Shown: piece after piece, positions 30,826 through 40,286 of the stretch
Layout of the letters: each line of letters starts with the position of its first letter
Numbering within the stretch: the stretch's first letter is position 1
From: Acidobacteriaceae bacterium
Lineage (GTDB): Bacteria > Acidobacteriota > Terriglobia > Terriglobales > Acidobacteriaceae
NCBI GenBank assembly: GCA_003151335.1
Contig: PLXE01000088.1
Span: forward strand, 1-64,000
Direction of reading: 5' to 3'
DNA: 64,000 nucleotides
Position numbers and translations under genes: made by a program
Notes under the pieces: model-generated
Databases searched by the model: none
What the model was told of the DNA's origin: nothing
Seen by the model: the letters and a program-made list of their open reading frames with translations, nothing else

Positions 30826-31728
30826 TCACTTGAAGGCAGGTCCTTGGAAGGCTGGTACTCGGAAGGCAGGTCCATGGAAGGCAGATACTGGGAAGGCAGG
30901 TCCCTGGAAGGCGGGTACTGGGAAGGCAGGTCCTTGGAGGGCGGGTACCCGGACGGTAGGTCCTTGGAAGGCAGGTCGTTGGAAGGCAGGTACGCTCAGG
31001 TCGCTCAGGTCGCTCAGGTCGGCACCGCTCGCGTCGGCAAGGGTTAGGTCGGCATCAGGTGGCGAGATAGCCTTTGGCGACGCCTCTCTCACTCTCGGTG
31101 GAGCGGCTTGGCTCTGGGTCGCTTCCTTCTTTGCCTTGGTGATCTCGCCAGCCCTCTTTCCTTCTTCTACTATTCCTTTGAAGCCTGGAGTCGCGTAGCT
31201 ATCCAGTGTTGCGAGGGGCGGGGATGTTCCGTCCAAAGCATAGCTAGTTCCGCATGGAACTGCCTTGCATTGAACTGCCGGCTGCTCTATGTTCGCGGAT
31301 TCTGGAGTCACGTAGCTATCCAGTGTTGAGAAGCGGGGCGGTGTTCCGTCCAATGCATGACTAGTTCTGGGGTGAACAGCCGGGTGCTCTGTGTACGATG
31401 GAGGCCCGTCGAACCCAATACCGGGACCCGTGCAGTAGGCGACAAAGGATGCAATTGCGTCCCAAAAATGGTTAGTGCCGCCGTGGTCTGCCGGGTGCTC
31501 TATGTTCGCGGATTCTGAAGTCGCGTAGGGATCCACTGTCGAGCGGGATTCCGAGGGGAAGGCTCGGCCCCCACGCGCATCGAATTCCTCGGTTCTTGAG
31601 GGCCGAAGCCTTTGCTCGTATGCAGAGATACCCATCCAGTAGACGACAAAGGATGCAACGAAGAGCGCAGCACAGGATAGAATCTTGATCGGTGCTTGCG
31701 CCCTTCTGCTTCGCTTCGATGCTGCCAT
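30826..31728 (-). CDS. Membrane-anchored repeat protein of unknown function
   Basis: 300 residues from the ATG at 31728. One membrane helix is at about 13-32 ('KILSCAALFVASFVVYWMGI'), with the remainder outside or inside unknown. Residues 60-185 hold diverged copies of a unit like 'ALDGTPPRFSTLDSYVTPESANIEQPAV'. Residues about 218-240 look like the start of pentapeptide repeats ('DADLTLADASGADLSDLSDL'), but from about 243 the frame runs into a 15-bp minisatellite read as 'VPAFQGPAF'. This C-terminus may be a frame-shifted continuation: another minus-strand frame over the minisatellite reads pentads 'YLPSNDLPSK'. I would treat the gene as real but possibly decaying. Confidence 0.55.
   Translation of the reverse strand: MAASKRSRRAQAPIKILSCAALFVASFVVYWMGISAYEQRLRPSRTEEFDARGGRAFPSESRSTVDPYATSESANIEHPADHGGTNHFWDAIASFVAYCTGPGIGFDGPPSYTEHPAVHPRTSHALDGTPPRFSTLDSYVTPESANIEQPAVQCKAVPCGTSYALDGTSPPLATLDSYATPGFKGIVEEGKRAGEITKAKKEATQSQAAPPRVREASPKAISPPDADLTLADASGADLSDLSDLSVPAFQRPAFQGPTVRVPALQGPAFPVPAFQGPAFPVSAFHGPAFRVPAFQGPAFK
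30841..30990. repeat. 15-bp minisatellite, ten units
   Basis: Ten in-register copies of a 15-bp unit, alternating TCCTTGGAAGGCAGG and TACTGGGAAGGCAGG types, so a 30-bp higher-order unit. Every unit keeps GGAAGGC or a one-base variant (GGAGGGC, GGACGGT). It is followed by three copies of a 9-bp unit, TCGCTCAGG (30993-31019). In any frame it gives five-residue periodic peptides. Confidence 0.85.
31186..31530. repeat. Diverged direct repeats of about 120 bp
   Basis: 'GTAGCTATCCAGTGTTG' occurs at about 31193-31209 and again at about 31312-31328, followed each time by 'TTCCGTCCAA(A/T)GCATG/AGCTAG'. 'GTGCTCTATGTTCGCGGATTCTG' type text occurs at about 31286-31306 and 31495-31518. They encode the internal repeats of the 30826-31728 protein, so the coding repeats arose by recent DNA duplication. 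Confidence 0.6.
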
Positions 31729-32085
31729 ATAGCTTATTCTTACGTTGGAATGTCCGTTTTGGCTCCCAACAGCCCCAATATATACCCGTCGAGCGATTCC
31801 AGCGCACTTTTTTCTTTGGCTGGGCCCGTGTTGCGCCAGATGGATCCATCGCTGTGCAGTTGAAACAAGTCTTTGCTGCCGGGTGCCCCACCCAAGCTTC
31901 TTTTGCTTGGGTGGGTGTGTTGACTTTCGTCGGCACGCGAACACACGGCGTGATACAAAATTCCAGGTCTCTCTCCAAGCAAGACAAAATCCCCGCCCAA
32001 GCAAAACCAGCTTGGACGGGGCACCCTCATCTGAGTAGTATCACCGGCATCCTTGGCTGGGCCACCCGTCCATCCGGCCCACTAG
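31729..32085. repeat. Intergenic stretch with two family C palindromes
   Basis: GCCCCACCCAAGC/GCTTGGGTGGG at 31882-31917 and CCCCGCCCAAGC/GCTTGGACGGGG at 31985-32030, separated by about 70 bases. They sit in the gap between the repeat-protein gene and the small zinc-ribbon-like gene upstream. No coding frame is supported. Confidence 0.6.
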
Positions 32086-33562: not shown

Positions 33563-34579
33563 CTAGCGGAGCGCGTCCATGGGAGAACTAATCTCCTGCT
33601 TGGCAGGAAACACATAGCGCGCGACTCCCTGCAACGATTCCGTCCCGCGCACTTCGTTATCGAGCAGAGGCACAACCGCCCGCACATTGTCGAAGTCGCG
33701 CCAGATTTCCTGCATGTAGCCGTCTTGCATGGCCACCCGGTTGCGGACGAACTCGGGCGAGTCGGGCCGGACCTGGTCTTTCTGAATCACCATGTTCACG
33801 ATGACCCCGCCGACGGGGATACCGAAATCGTGGAACCAGTTGATGAATCGCTTGATCACGGCGATGGGTAACGCCTCCGGCAGGGTGACAAAGAAGAAGG
33901 CGGTTTGCTCGACGTCGGTCAGCAATTCTCGCGCCTTCAAGATCCGTTCGCGAAAACCGACCAGGTACTCCATCAGCGGGTCGGTTTGCTTCTTCTTGGT
34001 GAAAGACAGAAGTTCGCGCAGGGTCTGCGCCTCGGCGCGCGATTTCACCATCTTGTTGACCCAGAGCGAATACACCTTGCTCATGCCCAGCAGACGGCGG
34101 GCATTGGCGGTGGGCGCGGTGTCGAAGACGTAGGCGTCATATTCGTTCTTGAGCATCAGGTCAACCATGTTCTCGAACATCGCCGATTCTTCGAACGCCG
34201 GATTCATGGTGGCGCTCTCGACAAAGGCGTCGGCCTGGGTGGAAATTTCGGCGAACTTGAGGAACCAGCGGATCTTGGTCTTGATGTCCTGCTTGGAGCG
34301 TTCGATGGTCTCCTTGGTGTCGATCTCGTACGCCCACAGGTTGGGGACGCCGGTGACCTGGGTCGGCGCTCCATAGACGTTCTGGTCCAGCAACCCGCTC
34401 AAGCTGTGCACGGGGTTGGTGGAGGCCAGCATGGTGCGCTTGCCCTCGCGCGCCAGGTGCAGGGCGGTGACGCCCGCCATGGTTGTCTTGCCTACGCCGC
34501 CCTTGCCGCCAAAGAACATGAACTTCATTTTGGGATGCGCGGTCACAAATTCGGTAAAGCTCTCTTTTATCTCAGACAT
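33563..34579 (-). CDS. ArsA/Get3-family ATPase, degenerate type II subunit
   Basis: 338 residues. Walker A 'GGKGGVGKTT' at about 24-33 with both family lysines. The switch I motif, normally 'DPAHSLSD', reads 'STNPVHSLSG': the first Asp is Asn55, matching the Get3 D57N change known to stop hydrolysis, and the second Asp is Gly. Switch II is 'FDTAPTANARRLL' (from about 152) instead of DTAPTGHTLR. It should bind but perhaps not hydrolyse ATP and may pair with the upstream ATPase. The ATG at 34579 leaves 7 bp after that gene; ATG 34606 would overlap it by 20 bp and is the alternative. Last gene of the four-gene operon. Confidence 0.85.
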   Translation of the reverse strand: MSEIKESFTEFVTAHPKMKFMFFGGKGGVGKTTMAGVTALHLAREGKRTMLASTNPVHSLSGLLDQNVYGAPTQVTGVPNLWAYEIDTKETIERSKQDIKTKIRWFLKFAEISTQADAFVESATMNPAFEESAMFENMVDLMLKNEYDAYVFDTAPTANARRLLGMSKVYSLWVNKMVKSRAEAQTLRELLSFTKKKQTDPLMEYLVGFRERILKARELLTDVEQTAFFFVTLPEALPIAVIKRFINWFHDFGIPVGGVIVNMVIQKDQVRPDSPEFVRNRVAMQDGYMQEIWRDFDNVRAVVPLLDNEVRGTESLQGVARYVFPAKQEISSPMDALR

Positions 34580-34586
34580 ATTCCGC

Positions 34587-35570
34587 TCACATTTTTCCGT
34601 TGCCATACATGATGTCGGCCAGTCTCTCGATCATCACCAGCCCGGTAATGTCACGCTCAAGTTCTGGAACGCGCCCCACGACCTGCTTGCCGAAAATCTT
34701 GTCAATCTTCCGCAAGTAGTCTCCCTGCATGGTGAGACGCTTCTGGAGATAGGGTGGTATTACCTGTCCGGCCAGGTCCGCCGGAAGCACACGGTTCACC
34801 ACATACCCGACAATGGGAACATCGAATTTGGCGAACAGTCCGGCCGCCTTTTCGGTGTCGAGAATGATCATCTCCTCCGGCACTATCACGAAAAAGAACG
34901 CTGTCTTGTCTTTGTCCGTCAAAATACGCGAGGACTGGTTGATGCGGTCCTTGATGTATTGCAGCTCGGTCAGGATATGGTCTTCTTCGGTGGTCTTCTG
35001 GCGTTTTATGCGCGCCACCATCTCTTCCTGCTCGCGCATCTCCTGGCGAAGCTTGGTGATGCGATTAATCCACTCGTCGTACACCTTCGCCATGGAAAGG
35101 TAGTAGAGCGCGTGCCCCAGCGGCACCAGATCGTAGATGTAATAGTCGTACTCGCCTCCGACCACGATATCGACCACCGCATCGAAGATGGCGGACTCCT
35201 CCATGGCCGGTTCCGCCGACGCCGCCTGAATGTACTGCTCGATTTCCTCGGGCACGGCATCCAGGCCATACATGTCGCGGATCTTTTTGCGGATCTGCTC
35301 CTGGTAATCGTGGATGTGGCGGTCGGCATCGACCTCTTGCGCGTAGAGGTTGGGCATGATCTCGACCGCGCCCTTGCCAAAAATGTCGCGCTGAAAGATG
35401 TCGCTGAGCGACGCCTGGGGATCGACGGAGAAGACCAGCACCTTGTGCCCTTGCTTCGCCAGCCAGTACGCCGTGGCCGCGGAGAAGGTGGTCTTGCCGA
35501 GTCCACCCTTGCCGCCGAACATGATGTAGCGGCGGTCCTTGTGGGTTTCGAATGCTTCTCGCAATGACAT
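34587..35570 (-). CDS. ArsA/Get3-family ATPase, type I subunit
   Basis: 327 residues. Walker A 'GGKGGLGKTT' at 19-28; switch I keeps its aspartates ('VDPQASLSD', Asp50) but has Gln-Ala in place of Ala-His; switch II reads 'YDLVPLGHALYYL' (Asp147) instead of DTAPTGHTLR. So it keeps what the downstream partner lost in switch I, and differs in switch II. ArsA-type enzymes drive arsenite efflux; Get3 targets tail-anchored membrane proteins. No arsenic gene is nearby, and it lacks the ArsA double length. Start ATG 35570. Operon with two small proteins upstream. Confidence 0.88.
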   Translation of the reverse strand: MSLREAFETHKDRRYIMFGGKGGLGKTTFSAATAYWLAKQGHKVLVFSVDPQASLSDIFQRDIFGKGAVEIMPNLYAQEVDADRHIHDYQEQIRKKIRDMYGLDAVPEEIEQYIQAASAEPAMEESAIFDAVVDIVVGGEYDYYIYDLVPLGHALYYLSMAKVYDEWINRITKLRQEMREQEEMVARIKRQKTTEEDHILTELQYIKDRINQSSRILTDKDKTAFFFVIVPEEMIILDTEKAAGLFAKFDVPIVGYVVNRVLPADLAGQVIPPYLQKRLTMQGDYLRKIDKIFGKQVVGRVPELERDITGLVMIERLADIMYGNGKM

Positions 35571-35618
35571 GAAAAGTCCTCGTATGAATTGCTGCTATTG
35601 GTTGGCAGTGCTGCCGGC

Positions 35619-35924
35619 TCAGAACATCGCGTCCGATACGTCCTTTTCCCGCAACATGCGGCGCTTCCACGTCGAGATGTTGGGAACGACGTAGGGCAAA
35701 AGCCGCAGTGAGTAATAGGGCGGAAGTATGGGGACTCCGATAAGGTCCCCCATGGTAATCAGGATGAACAGGTGTTCCATGCTGGCGCGGGTGCGCAAGG
35801 CGTAGCGCGACATATCATGCGCGCTCATGCCGTAGGCAATTTCCTTCAGCTTGCTGAACAGTCCCTGTTTCTCTTCTTTCGCTTCGGTTTCTTCCTTTTT
35901 GGTTGGATCGTCTGGCATAGTCAT
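35619..35924 (-). CDS. Small ArsA-operon protein B (paralogue of its upstream neighbour)
   Basis: 101 residues. After a charged Lys/Glu-rich N-terminus ('KKEETEAKEEKQGLFSKLK') comes a conserved core with 'GDLIGVPILPPYY' and 'LRLLPYVVP', then 'STWKRRMLREKDVSD'. The core aligns with the neighbouring 98-residue protein: GDxxGVPxxPPxYxLRxLPYxxPxISTWKRR. The central proline-rich hydrophobic segment may sit in or at the membrane, and the basic WKRR end may face the cytosol. Unknown family; its pairing with ArsA-type ATPases suggests client or anchor. Start ATG 35924; 48-bp gap to the ATPase gene. Confidence 0.72.
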   Translation of the reverse strand: MTMPDDPTKKEETEAKEEKQGLFSKLKEIAYGMSAHDMSRYALRTRASMEHLFILITMGDLIGVPILPPYYSLRLLPYVVPNISTWKRRMLREKDVSDAMF

Positions 35925-35958
35925 AACTCCATTCCGTGTCCGTTATTGGCTCGGGGCG

Positions 35959-36252
35959 TCACACCCCGTGCAGATGAAACTCTTCCCGCTCGGAGAGGTC
36001 ACGCTCGCGCCCGACCCGCCGTTTCCAGGTACTGATCATAGGTACCGCATAGGGCAAGATGCGAAGCGCGTACAGCGGCGGCATCACGGGGACGCCAAGC
36101 ATGTCACCCAGGGTCAGGAGCATGAACGCGGACTCCAGTTCTCCGCGCTGTTCCCGGGCCTGCTGCTCGAACTCGAAAGAGATCATGCCGTAAAAAAACT
36201 CGCGGACGTTGTCAAGCCAACTCCGCGCGGCCGGCATGGTGATTACGCGCAT
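35959..36252 (-). CDS. Small ArsA-operon protein A
   Basis: 98 residues, first gene of the operon. It begins 'MRVITMPAARSWLDNVREFFYGM' and continues to 'GDMLGVPVMPPLYALRILPY' and 'MISTWKRRVGRERDLSE', the same core as the next gene. The two probably form a heteromer or a related pair made by duplication. I choose ATG 36252 (GGAAGAG upstream); the open frame runs further upstream but crosses the divergent gene and its sequence there is unlike a protein. ATG 36237 is an alternative. 34-bp gap to the second small gene. Confidence 0.7.
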   Translation of the reverse strand: MRVITMPAARSWLDNVREFFYGMISFEFEQQAREQRGELESAFMLLTLGDMLGVPVMPPLYALRILPYAVPMISTWKRRVGRERDLSEREEFHLHGV

Positions 36253-36322
36253 GTCAGCGCTCTTCCGGGGCGAGAGTGTATGCCATAATGGTCGTCGGTC
36301 CTTTGACTCAGCCACAAAACCA

Positions 36323-36955
36323 ATGTCACCCGAGCTAGCCATCTTCGTGGTGGTTGTCATCGCCATCGTCGGATGGTTTGCGCTCGGTACGCACCTGAAT
36401 GTCCGCAAGGGCCATCGCTTCCTGGAATGGCTGCAGAGCGGCTTGCCGCTGGTCGGAGAAAAAACCACTCTGCGCTGGCTGGGCTCTTCTGTCGTCCACC
36501 TCCAGATCGAAAACGCCCGCGAGCCTTTCCGCCGAGTCGAAGTCCTGGTCGTTTTGGAACCCCGGGACGTTCCGCCATGGTGGCTGCTCTCGCGCCTGCG
36601 CGGCCGACGCGATCTGCTGATTGTTCGTACCGAGTTGCGTTCTGTCCCCAAGATACAGGTCGAAATCCTCGATCCGCAAGCCTGGTCGGTCCGCGCTATC
36701 GAGAAAGAAGTTCGACAGCAGCAGTGGCATCCGGTTCCCTTCGAAAACCCAGGGCTCCAGGTTTACGCTCTCGCTCCGGTTGCCAACATCGCTGAGCTGG
36801 TGGCCGAAGCCGAACGCCCAGGTCTCTCGCTGGTCCGCATCGGAGTGCGCCGGGCCAAGAACAGCTTCGAGATGCAGTGGCGACTACCTTCGCGGCCAGC
36901 ATCGGCGGCGCGCGCCGTCTTCGAAACCGTCCAGCGCCTCGCCCGCCAAGTTTGA
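36323..36955 (+). CDS. Single-pass membrane protein, unknown function
   Basis: 210 residues from the ATG at 36323. The first about 20 residues are a membrane anchor ('ELAIFVVVVIAIVGWFALG'). The rest is a soluble domain with no recognised motif ('SVVHLQIENAREPFRRVEVLVVLEPRDVPPWWLLSRLRGRRDLLIVRTELR'), of mixed alpha/beta character. Divergent from the ArsA-type operon with a 70-bp shared promoter, which suggests a functional tie. Its end is only 11 bp from the convergent cstA end. A further upstream start would run into the divergent gene and adds no structure. Confidence 0.65.
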   Translation: MSPELAIFVVVVIAIVGWFALGTHLNVRKGHRFLEWLQSGLPLVGEKTTLRWLGSSVVHLQIENAREPFRRVEVLVVLEPRDVPPWWLLSRLRGRRDLLIVRTELRSVPKIQVEILDPQAWSVRAIEKEVRQQQWHPVPFENPGLQVYALAPVANIAELVAEAERPGLSLVRIGVRRAKNSFEMQWRLPSRPASAARAVFETVQRLARQV

Positions 36956-36966
36956 GGCGAAGCTTC

Positions 36967-39018
36967 TCAGTCCGCCGCCATCGGCTGCACCTGCGCCGGC
37001 CCTTTTAACCGGCCCCAGGCATGCCAGGCGTCGTAGGCGATGATCAGCGCCGCCACAAACAGCAAGACCGCAACCACTATCATCGCCACTGCGCCGAACA
37101 AGTTGATGGTCTGCGAGGCGATCTGCTGGTTCGACAATATGCTGGCGTACAGGTTGTAGGCGGTCACAATGATGGCCGCCATGGTCGTGATGTACATGAA
37201 CAGCATGGGCCAGAACGCATATCGCGGACTGCGTCCCACCGACTTTAGCCAGAGGCTGACGATCAGCAGACTCAGCGCCGCCATCAACTGGTTGGAAGCC
37301 CCAAAGAGCTGCCACAGGTAGATCCACGTTCCACTCAGAACCAGGAGCATGGTCAAGCCCATGGAAATGATGGCAGAAATGTGCGGATTCTTGAAGCCCA
37401 GCCACACATCGCCCAGCCATTCACCCAAGGTGACGCGCATGACGCGAAAGACCAGTTGCACCATGGTCAAGACGATCACCACGAACACGCCGAAGCCCAG
37501 CGCGGTCCCGTAAGCTTGCTGGATCCCGCCGAATGTAACCAGTCCCAGCAGCTTGCCGACGCCGCCGGCGAACGCGCCTGCGCCCGCTCCGCCCGCGATG
37601 GAAACCGCCACCAGCGCGAGCAAGGCCAGCGCATTTTCCGTGAACATGCCACCGCCGCCCACCGGCAACGCATCGGTCTCATATTCCAGTTGCCGCGCGG
37701 TGCCGATGGAACCGACCAGCGAGTGCCAGCCCGAGATAGCGCCGCACGCGATGGTCACAAACAGCATCGGCCAGATCGGTTGGATGGCCGGCAGGTTCTG
37801 CAGAACGTGGCCGGCGGCATCCTTCGCTTGGGTCATGGGAATCCAGGTGCCAAATACCTTGGTCTGGAAGGTCACGGCCTGGGTCATCACCGTATTCCCC
37901 AACAGTCCGCGGAGTCCAGCGACGACTGCACCCAAGGCCGAGAAGCCGATGGTGAGGAAGGTGATCCAGAAGCCTATATAGTTGGTGGGCTGGGCGAAGC
38001 GCCAGATGGGCAAGACCGTCCCCAGATACGAGAAGGCGAAGATGAACAGGCACCAGAAGATGAACGAGGGCAGCATCTTGATGGCGCCGCCGCCCGCCAT
38101 GTACTTCGGCACAATCTGGCCTTGGGCATCGACGGTCATCGCCGCCAGACGCGGATCCGATTTCGTAGGATCGACTACGGTGTACAAAGCCTTCCCGCCC
38201 GAGAGCTGGTTGATCGCGCCATTCAGCTTCTCCACCAGAGAATTGATGGGGCCGCCGAATACGACGGCTGCGCCAGGCTGACCGGCCGGAGTTTTCCCCT
38301 TCACGATGGACATGCCACGCGCACCCCACGCCATCGCACCCATGGTCAAGCCAACCGCGAGGACGGTGACAACGATCAGGTCCATCTTCCAGCGATAGAG
38401 CATCTGCCCCATTACCAGACCCATGATGGCCAGAATGAAGATGCCAAACGGGACATCGGCCCGCGGGTCGAAGATACCGGCCATGATTCCCACGAAGGCC
38501 CCAGCCAGCAACAGCAGATAAAAGAAGATGAACACAAAGAGGATGACGCGAGCTCGCGGCGCAATCAGCCGGTGTGCAATCGCCGACAGCGAGTTGCCGT
38601 CGTTGCGCACCGCCACCATGATGGCGGAGTAGTCGCTGGCCCAGCCCAGGAAGGTAACGCCCAGGGTAAGCCAGAGTAGCGAGGGCAGCCATCCCCAGAG
38701 TGCGACCGCGGCAATCGGGCCCACGATGGGACCGGCGGCAGCAATGGACTTGAAGTGGTAGCCGTAGAGCACGTTGCGGCTCGTAGGCATGAAGTCAACC
38801 CCGTCCATGTACATGCGCGCGGGAGTAGCCTTCTTGGCATCAGGTTGGATGACGTCTTTGTCGATTCGGCGAGCGTACCCTGTGTAGCCTAGCCAGATCA
38901 TGACCGCCCCGAGGATCGCAATCACGGGAGCGTTCATGGGCCGTTTGGCGAGGGCAAAACCGCCGCCTACCAGGATGGGGAGGAGAATCAGAACCAGGAT
39001 CGTGGCCCGATATTTCAT
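36967..39018 (-). CDS. cstA: Carbon starvation protein CstA family
   Basis: 683-residue inner-membrane transporter with about 16 helices, normal for CstA. 'ARMYMDGVDFMPTSRNVLYGYHFKSIAAAGPIVGP' (about 62-96) is the family's diagnostic block. In E. coli CstA and its relative BtsT take up peptides or pyruvate, under cAMP-CRP control and stringent conditions. ATG 39018 follows GAAGGAGGCTGGAT; the longer frame upstream is not used. Monocistronic, in its own stretch with the candidate regulator site at 39159-39174. No two-component partner gene (BtsSR/YpdAB type) nearby. Confidence 0.95.
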   Translation of the reverse strand: MKYRATILVLILLPILVGGGFALAKRPMNAPVIAILGAVMIWLGYTGYARRIDKDVIQPDAKKATPARMYMDGVDFMPTSRNVLYGYHFKSIAAAGPIVGPIAAVALWGWLPSLLWLTLGVTFLGWASDYSAIMVAVRNDGNSLSAIAHRLIAPRARVILFVFIFFYLLLLAGAFVGIMAGIFDPRADVPFGIFILAIMGLVMGQMLYRWKMDLIVVTVLAVGLTMGAMAWGARGMSIVKGKTPAGQPGAAVVFGGPINSLVEKLNGAINQLSGGKALYTVVDPTKSDPRLAAMTVDAQGQIVPKYMAGGGAIKMLPSFIFWCLFIFAFSYLGTVLPIWRFAQPTNYIGFWITFLTIGFSALGAVVAGLRGLLGNTVMTQAVTFQTKVFGTWIPMTQAKDAAGHVLQNLPAIQPIWPMLFVTIACGAISGWHSLVGSIGTARQLEYETDALPVGGGGMFTENALALLALVAVSIAGGAGAGAFAGGVGKLLGLVTFGGIQQAYGTALGFGVFVVIVLTMVQLVFRVMRVTLGEWLGDVWLGFKNPHISAIISMGLTMLLVLSGTWIYLWQLFGASNQLMAALSLLIVSLWLKSVGRSPRYAFWPMLFMYITTMAAIIVTAYNLYASILSNQQIASQTINLFGAVAMIVVAVLLFVAALIIAYDAWHAWGRLKGPAQVQPMAAD

Positions 39019-39434: not shown

Positions 39435-40286
39435 GTGAGTCATCAGCATTCGCACATGCCCGGCCAGCCGCAGGCTGGGCCGCAGCCGCTTCCGGGAGTC
39501 AACAGCATCATCGCCGTAGGCTCAGGCAAGGGTGGTGTTGGCAAAACCACTCTGGCGGTGAACCTGGCCATCGCGCTGGCGCGCCTGGGCCACAAAGTCG
39601 GGCTACTCGACGCCGACGTGTACGGCCCTAACGTCCCAATGATGCTGGGCACCACCATGGCCCCCAGCGTCGTCGGCGAAGACCGCATTCTGCCGCCGGA
39701 GCGTTACGGCCTGAAGGTGATGTCGGTCGGCTTTCTCAGTCCAGGCGACAAGCCGCTGGTGTGGCGCGGCCCCATGCTGCACTCCATCGTCAAGCAGTTT
39801 CTCGGCCAGGTGGATTGGGGACAGCTCGACTACCTTATCGTCGATCTGCCGCCGGGCACGGGCGATGTCGTGATCTCGCTGACGCAAACTGTGCCGCTGA
39901 CGGGCGCGGTCGTGGTCACTACGCCAAGTGACGTTGCCTTGCAGGACGCGCGCAAAGCCCTCGAGATGTTCCGGCAGGTGAAGGTGGACATCATCGGCAT
40001 CGTGGAGAACATGAGTTTCTTCATCTGCCCGCATTGCCAGCACGAGATTGACATCTTCTCCAAGGGCGGCGGGGCGCGCACCGCGCAGCAGTTCGGGGTG
40101 CCGTTTCTCGGCAGCATCGAACTCGATCCCGACATTCGCAAGGGCGGCGACAGTGGCCAGCCCGTCGTGCTCGAGGGCGACCAGTCCCCACATGCCAAGT
40201 CGCTGTTCGCGTTCACCCAGCGCGTGATCGAACGCACCAAGGAATTGCAAGAAGCGGACAGCGGCAGCGTGATTGAGATTCAGTAG
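39435..40286 (+). CDS. Mrp/NBP35 family iron-sulfur carrier ATPase
   Basis: 283-residue P-loop ATPase of the MinD/Mrp group. Walker A 'GSGKGGVGKTTL' (about 29-40), 'LLDADVYGPNVPMML' (switch/Walker A'), 'DYLIVDLPPGTGD' and the C-terminal 'FFICPHC' Cys-x-x-Cys pair that binds a bridging Fe-S cluster. It likely acts as a scaffold or carrier in Fe-S protein maturation. The N-terminus has a His-rich tail ('SHQHSHMPGQPQAGPQ'), which may bind metal. The GTG at 39435 is the start read for the frame; an ATG at codon 8 exists. Followed by a family B palindrome (40293-40331). Confidence 0.92.
   Translation: MSHQHSHMPGQPQAGPQPLPGVNSIIAVGSGKGGVGKTTLAVNLAIALARLGHKVGLLDADVYGPNVPMMLGTTMAPSVVGEDRILPPERYGLKVMSVGFLSPGDKPLVWRGPMLHSIVKQFLGQVDWGQLDYLIVDLPPGTGDVVISLTQTVPLTGAVVVTTPSDVALQDARKALEMFRQVKVDIIGIVENMSFFICPHCQHEIDIFSKGGGARTAQQFGVPFLGSIELDPDIRKGGDSGQPVVLEGDQSPHAKSLFAFTQRVIERTKELQEADSGSVIEIQ

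Follow-up and report, generated by a model that had tools for sequence, protein, structure and literature searches.

We analysed a window of 64,000 nucleotides (contig PLXE01000088.1, positions 1 to 64,000, of the Acidobacteriaceae assembly GCA_003151335.1) in which four minus-strand genes stand in the order SA, SB, type I and type II. SA and SB are small paralogous proteins, type I and type II are Get3/ArsA-type ATPases, and the gene of a single-pass membrane protein, hereafter mp, diverges from the four. Genes, strand and order had all been given correctly by a first-pass annotation made from the letters of the DNA, and the interval that it cited (33563 to 36955) holds the right genes, but it overlooked the adjoining gene just outside, which encodes a CstA-family transporter. 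The module looks like an undescribed accessory machine for this transporter. The features discussed in this work are as follows.

36967 to 39018, minus strand: CstA-family carbon-starvation transporter gene, 683 amino acids (aa); PF02554 313.9 bits against a cut-off of 27
36323 to 36955, plus strand: mp, a membrane protein of 210 aa encoded divergently; a single transmembrane helix at the N-terminus and an alpha/beta domain
36253 to 36322, no strand: gap of 70 base pairs separating the divergent mp and SA starts; presumed shared promoter region
35959 to 36252, minus strand: small protein SA, 97 aa; cory-CC-star-like, ending HLHGV, without a terminal Cys-Cys
35619 to 35924, minus strand: small protein SB, 101 aa; SA paralogue, ending DAMF
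34587 to 35570, minus strand: type I Get3/ArsA-type ATPase, 327 aa; PF02374 243.6 bits, TIGR00345 230.2 bits
35112 to 35132, minus strand: switch II of type I (residues 147-153), which reads DLVPLGH where DTAPTGH is canonical; unchanged in 80 of 80 orthologues
33563 to 34579, minus strand: type II Get3/ArsA-type ATPase, 338 aa from the ATG at 34579; PF02374 230.6 bits, TIGR00345 221 bits
34415 to 34417, minus strand: type II switch-I Asn codon (STNPVHS), standing where other members have the catalytic Asp (yeast Get3 D57)

The ATG at 34579 is the likelier start of type II, because it lies a few bases past the type I stop, while the longer open reading frame (ORF) overlaps type I. The promoter function of the gap is presumed, and a sigma-70 consensus scan found no site in it.

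Conservation of the module

The small protein is encoded in 16 of the 199 genomes of our phylum sample, which were taken as Acidobacteriota from their named relatives, and an ArsA-family gene lies beside it in all 16; in the phylum genome G055 the block is divided between two contigs. A scan of the GTDB species genomes gave 371 relatives, from which the best 80 loci were retained, and 84 loci were left once duplicates had been dropped and the phylum hits added. The loci were picked by similarity to SB, and the proportions reported here therefore apply to close relatives. The records behind the best 80 bear the labels Acidobacteria, Chloroflexi, Gemmatimonadetes, Actinobacteria, Bacillota, Bacteroidetes, and beta- and deltaproteobacteria, and almost all of them are metagenome-assembled genomes. 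Both ATPases are present in every one of the 66 loci having at least 2.6 kb downstream, and the gene order in these loci is SA-SB-I-II, with SA unrecognised in some. SA-SB-I-II is a real conserved operon. The first-pass annotation had said that small-protein homologues mostly lacking ArsA neighbours would count against its reading; instead, an ArsA-family neighbour was found wherever the flank sufficed.

In many Chloroflexota loci, type II is followed by one more small paralogue, the third, with DAIF or a similar sequence at its end; the loci with such a gene are L064, L067, L075, L079-L081, L085, L086, L090, L094, L100, L104, L107, L114, and L116. A thioredoxin-like/DUF1525 protein is encoded about 2.7 kb upstream of the module at L074:2795-3196 and at 33 other loci. 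There were no module relatives on viral contigs, a plasmid search with SB gave no match, and models of anti-phage defence returned weak P-loop matches at most.

The ATPase pair and the small proteins

Type I and type II share 32% identity, and both pass the models TIGR00345 (TRC40/GET3/ArsA, cut-off 135) and PF02374 (cut-off 24.3) with the scores listed above. Their active sites differ in an invariant way. SVDPQAS and YDLVPLGHALY are present in 80 of 80 type I proteins, which thus retain both switch-I Asp residues, the catalytic one included, and in switch II the D, P, G, and H, the only change there being T/A/T to L/V/L. Type II reads STNPVHS and FDTAPTANARR in 73 of 73 proteins; its second switch-I Asp is replaced by G, S, N, or T in all 73, and AN replaces GH in switch II. 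In yeast Get3, the residue that primes the attacking water is Asp57 (PMC10248533), and because an invariant Asn occupies this position, type II is probably hydrolysis-deficient. Type I is probably the active, catalytic subunit, with a switch II that is altered but not dead. The first-pass annotation had reported these motifs (VDPQAS and DLVPLGH in type I, NP and DTAPT in type II) exactly, and they proved to be conserved, the type II Asn without exception. Its proposal that one ATPase is catalytic and the other is not also finds support, in the form of an asymmetric pair of which one member probably hydrolyses ATP and the other probably does not. Its phrase "complementary-degenerate", however, overstated the complementarity, since type I keeps the catalytic residues and type II has lost the second Asp and the Gly-His as well.

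Canonical STDPAH and DTAPTGH motifs are found in seven single-copy relatives (L040-L046) and in three plasmid ATPases; the more divergent ATPases of L168-L172 have no exact match to them. In the trees, the type I clade and the type II clade are sisters (100/95), which suggests a joint duplication of small proteins and ATPases, and type I alone and type II alone are placed alike, next to archaeal Get3 and ArsA. CxxC, which in Get3 binds Zn at the dimer interface, occurs in none of 153 ATPase proteins, and some true Get3 proteins likewise have no CxxC (PMC10248533). Cys is altogether absent from most type I and type II proteins, which have no metalloid site. The grand average of hydropathy of the TRC40 insert is -1.03 in type I and -0.74 in type II, compared with -0.80 in two archaeal Get3 proteins. 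With the ArsA equivalog TIGR04291 (cut-off 650), the two ATPases reach 97.6 and 109 bits, and they are single-domain, not tandem two-domain, proteins; the BagA/BagB equivalogs (cut-offs 400 and 521) give 45-53 and 34-43 bits for the module ATPases, and the Get3d alpha-crystallin domain PF17886 is absent from both types. Arsenic resistance is rejected on the scores and the absence of Cys, in agreement with the earlier view that this is not an arsenic system. The genome has a third ArsA-family protein (G000:C69:64693-65616, L047), which is of the Get3d type and carries a C-terminal ArsA_HSP20 domain (PF17886).

Identity between SA and SB is 45%, and both have the motif GDxxGVPxxPPxYxLRxLPYxxPxISTWKRR, as had been claimed; no other small protein of the module is as conserved as SB, whose conservation is strong across phyla. 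With the cory-CC-star model NF041419 (cut-off 80), SA and SB stay below the cut-off at 38.2 and 33.6 bits, whereas single-copy relatives (the Paracoccus protein and that of L043) exceed it with 88.8 and 128.1. A CC-star protein profile retrieves SA at 8.9e-12 and SB at 3.7e-8 in a genome search. The C-terminal Cys-Cys is missing from both SA and SB, whereas the L040-L046 relatives end in CC. Judged from these profile scores, SA and SB are homologous to the cory-CC-star family but fall outside the definition that NF041419 itself sets. A sequence search of the PDB with the small proteins gave no match; the SB model is of low confidence (predicted local distance difference test, pLDDT, 65.7), and a fold search with it returned nothing.

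The linked transporter and the divergent membrane protein

When the flanking ORFs were clustered without supervision, CstA ranked first, at about 71 loci. It is present in 61 of the 72 module loci having at least 3.5 kb upstream, nearly always upstream and usually on the same strand, and in 16 of 16 Acidobacteriota genomes with the small protein versus 132 of 199 overall. In the CstA tree, those of the module all group in one clade (20 of 20, support 100/100), and the CstAs linked to YbdD form another. The CstA of the window is the only one in its genome, and its 119.7 bits with the E. coli-type CstA equivalog are below the cut-off of 1188. Researchers have found that pyruvate uptake by E. coli CstA depends on a small protein, YbdD (PMC5847655); members of the YbdD/Sel_put family (PF04328) are absent from the window genome. 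YbdD, which likewise ends in Cys-Cys, was also considered as a cory homologue, but the likeness seen by eye (GxPN, terminal CC) failed in profile comparison (probability 1-4%). Other acidobacterial CstA genes (L176-L180) precede small proteins ending RCC or KCC. The Pfam Sel_put model misses three of these five (L176-L178), which resemble YbdD proteins that have diverged.

A smaller unit with the same three protein families is found on plasmids of Paracoccus, Pseudochrobactrum, and Cytobacillus, where a gene annotated as carbon starvation protein A comes first, one for a cory-CC-star protein follows, and one for an ArsA family ATPase is last. In Paracoccus there are overlaps of a few bases among the three, and Cytobacillus has an additional small hypothetical gene between CstA and the cory gene. 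The order CstA, small protein, ATPase also occurs in six Acidobacteriota (G004, G020, G047, G078, G077, and G183). The module seems to be this unit after a duplication that left it asymmetric. In the minimal unit, the genes of transporter, small protein, and ATPase are packed into a single operon, as is common for the parts of one complex. CstA is the usual but not the sole neighbour of cory-ATPase pairs, since the pair at L041:8267-10606 has a heavy-metal P-type ATPase and an ArsR-type regulator immediately ahead of it and a resistance-nodulation-division (RND) pump behind it. The recurring theme across these gene orders seems to be a transporter or pump ATPase with a small protein. At L168-L170 there are three CstA-small protein-ATPase operons whose small proteins end EGWA and whose ATPases are more divergent; those of them that were inspected read STDLAHS in switch I and DSGPTGQ or DSGATAQ in switch II. 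On the Halobacterium plasmid pNRC100 (L192:4390-4937), the genes of HcsL and HcsS, two small proteins with a Cys-Cys end, come after arsA. In the open-access literature we found no published description of the module, no mention of "cory-CC-star", and no paper joining "carbon starvation protein" with "ArsA family ATPase".

The model of mp is very confident (pLDDT 96.7, predicted template modelling score 0.91) and has one transmembrane helix and an alpha/beta domain. Its best match among solved folds is 7tm3_4 (Z 16.3, root-mean-square deviation 2.7, 206 of 210 residues aligned), followed by 9i78_4 (Z 14.8) and 6w6l_7 (Z 10.4), and the matched chains belong to mammalian and fungal multipass translocon structures. 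We infer that these chains are CCDC47, because the match to the 9i78 chain spans residue 76 to 363 and CCDC47 residues 76-370 were docked in that structure (PMC12572126), and because 6W6L includes the CCDC47 cytosolic domain (PMC7505659). As predicted, mp has the CCDC47 fold, including the transmembrane helix and the cytosolic domain, and the next fold match is the mycobacterial transport factor TtfA (Z 9.6). CCDC47 is a membrane-protein assembly factor of the eukaryotic PAT complex. A 2022 paper describes prokaryotes as being without PAT components (PMC9630114). At the sequence level, mp has no Pfam match, a search of the genome with PF07946 (CCDC47) to an E-value of 10 found nothing, and a PDB sequence search with mp gave no convincing match; the viral fold library gave no significant match either. 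Because a match between the sequences is missing, we regard common ancestry of mp and CCDC47 as no more than plausible. The gene adjoins the module in 50 of 72 loci and is present in seven of the 199 phylum genomes, six of which are module genomes, and mp is therefore an addition to the module that is not part of its minimal form.

Two further genes of the window lie outside this group. Positions 30826-32004 encode a predicted protein with a C-terminal run of repeats, such as FQGPAFPVPAFQGPAF, and past CstA, a gene for an Mrp/ApbC-type P-loop iron-sulphur carrier lies at 39435-40283 on the plus strand.

Possible function and known counterparts

We consider it likely that the module acts on CstA, either by coupling to transport or by assembly of the transporter. 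Our tentative preference is for a dedicated accessory module that drives, gates, or stabilises a CstA-family transporter in the manner of ArsA and ArsB. A cytosolic Get3/ArsA-type heterodimer would bind ATP at two unequal sites; type I would hydrolyse it, and type II, with Asn for the catalytic Asp, would chiefly bind nucleotide and set the conformation of the dimer. SA and SB, which either derive from cory-CC-star proteins or are related to them, may couple the heterodimer to CstA, while mp with its CCDC47 fold may hold the assembly at the membrane, so that ATP turnover would drive, gate, or stabilise transport by CstA, as ArsA does for ArsB. Several points weigh against this proposal. The linkage is not universal, as CstA is absent nearby from 11 of 72 module loci and from several cory-ATPase pairs. 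The parallel with YbdD seems to be one of function only, homology between YbdD and cory proteins being undetectable by profile. The substrate logic of ArsA is not transferable to ATPases that are nearly free of Cys and have no metalloid site. In addition, known Get3 proteins and CCDC47 serve the biogenesis of membrane proteins and not transport.

That last point leads to a possible alternative, in which the Get3-like heterodimer, the CCDC47-like mp, and the small proteins insert, chaperone, or stabilise CstA, with or without other clients, and thereby do in bacteria what GET and PAT do together. This assembly machine ranks close behind transport coupling and is nearly as likely, since eukaryotes use Get3 as well as CCDC47 for biogenesis. 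In its favour, two components of one locus have folds that act in membrane-protein biogenesis at the endoplasmic reticulum, CstA would be its obvious multipass client, and SB is hydrophobic, about 100 aa long, and highly conserved; however, mp is confined to a branch of the module loci with none nearby in the annotated minimal units, it is without the part of CCDC47 past the matched core (the chain match stops at residue 393), and TtfA, a transport factor, has the same fold. The ATPases also have no CxxC, and their client-binding insert is not clearly hydrophobic. The first-pass annotation had proposed a targeting or membrane-insertion machine with the small proteins as client or anchor. The machine survives as a live rival, now with support from the mp fold, but CstA is the more natural client; the role given to the small proteins is unsupported, as the conserved extra partner is CstA and the CxxC of Get3 is absent. 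We are more doubtful of the wider claim that several phyla own a transporter-assembly machine made of a Get3-type heterodimer with unequal subunits, small proteins associated with the membrane, and a genuine CCDC47 homologue, such that part of PAT would have bacterial roots.

Two other explanations leave CstA a lesser place. BagA and BagB of mycobacteria have been tied to glycerol and nitric oxide stress (PMC10597346), and the module pair could similarly be a regulatory or signalling switch for carbon use that responds to the nucleotide or energy state and has CstA among several targets. BagA and BagB are paired Get3-like ATPases (6bs3 contains both chains), and CstA is a starvation-linked gene; nevertheless, the scores of 34-53 bits limit the kinship to the shared fold, the module has no conserved regulator, and we judge such a switch improbable. 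Handling of metals or metalloids, in which the ATPases and small proteins would serve efflux and the CstA linkage would be secondary, is the least probable of all and in our opinion very unlikely. It can draw on the cory-ATPase pair in the heavy-metal efflux cluster of L041 and on the haloarchaeal ars operon, which pairs ArsA with CC-ending small proteins, but the module ATPases are almost devoid of Cys, its small proteins have lost the Cys-Cys tail, the ArsA equivalog scores are far too low, and no arsenic or metal gene was prominent in the clustering of neighbours around module loci.

These results bear on why Get3/ArsA-type ATPases are widespread in bacteria without a GET pathway, on the need of CstA-type transporters for small partner proteins, and on CCDC47-type factors in prokaryotes. 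If our preferred proposal of an accessory module is true, CstA would be a secondary transporter family that gained an ATPase partner, at first in a minimal form that was then duplicated with one active site disabled, and the module would offer a naturally asymmetric Get3 in which the use of the two ATP sites could be tested.

Among known systems, the nearest relatives that we found are the CstA-cory-CC-star-ArsA triads, which have the gene order and the three protein families of the module; the triads, however, have one Cys-Cys-ending small protein, one canonical ATPase, and no mp nearby. The module resembles the ArsA/ArsB pump in its ArsA-fold ATPase, two non-identical nucleotide sites, and an adjoining membrane carrier, but its ATPases come from two genes where ArsA is a single fusion, they have no Cys site for metalloids, and CstA stands in place of ArsB. 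E. coli CstA-YbdD likewise sets CstA beside a small protein, although that system has no ATPase and YbdD is not detectably homologous to SA or SB. With Get3/TRC40 the ATPases share the fold, a Walker A motif with the signature Lys, and the switch motifs, and their best structural templates are the archaeal Get3-type proteins 3ug7 and 3zq6; unlike Get3, the module is expected to form a heterodimer, has no CxxC, and in one subunit replaces the catalytic Asp by an invariant Asn. BagA/BagB (Rv3679/Rv3680) are similar as paired Get3-like paralogues but belong to a different subfamily by score. The fold of mp is like that of CCDC47 and TtfA, in the case of CCDC47 with the transmembrane helix too, and mp terminates with the matched core. 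The halo-CC-star proteins HcsL and HcsS with haloarchaeal ArsA again place small CC-ending proteins beside ArsA, but they belong to other families (NF041416 and NF041415) and stand in an arsenic context.

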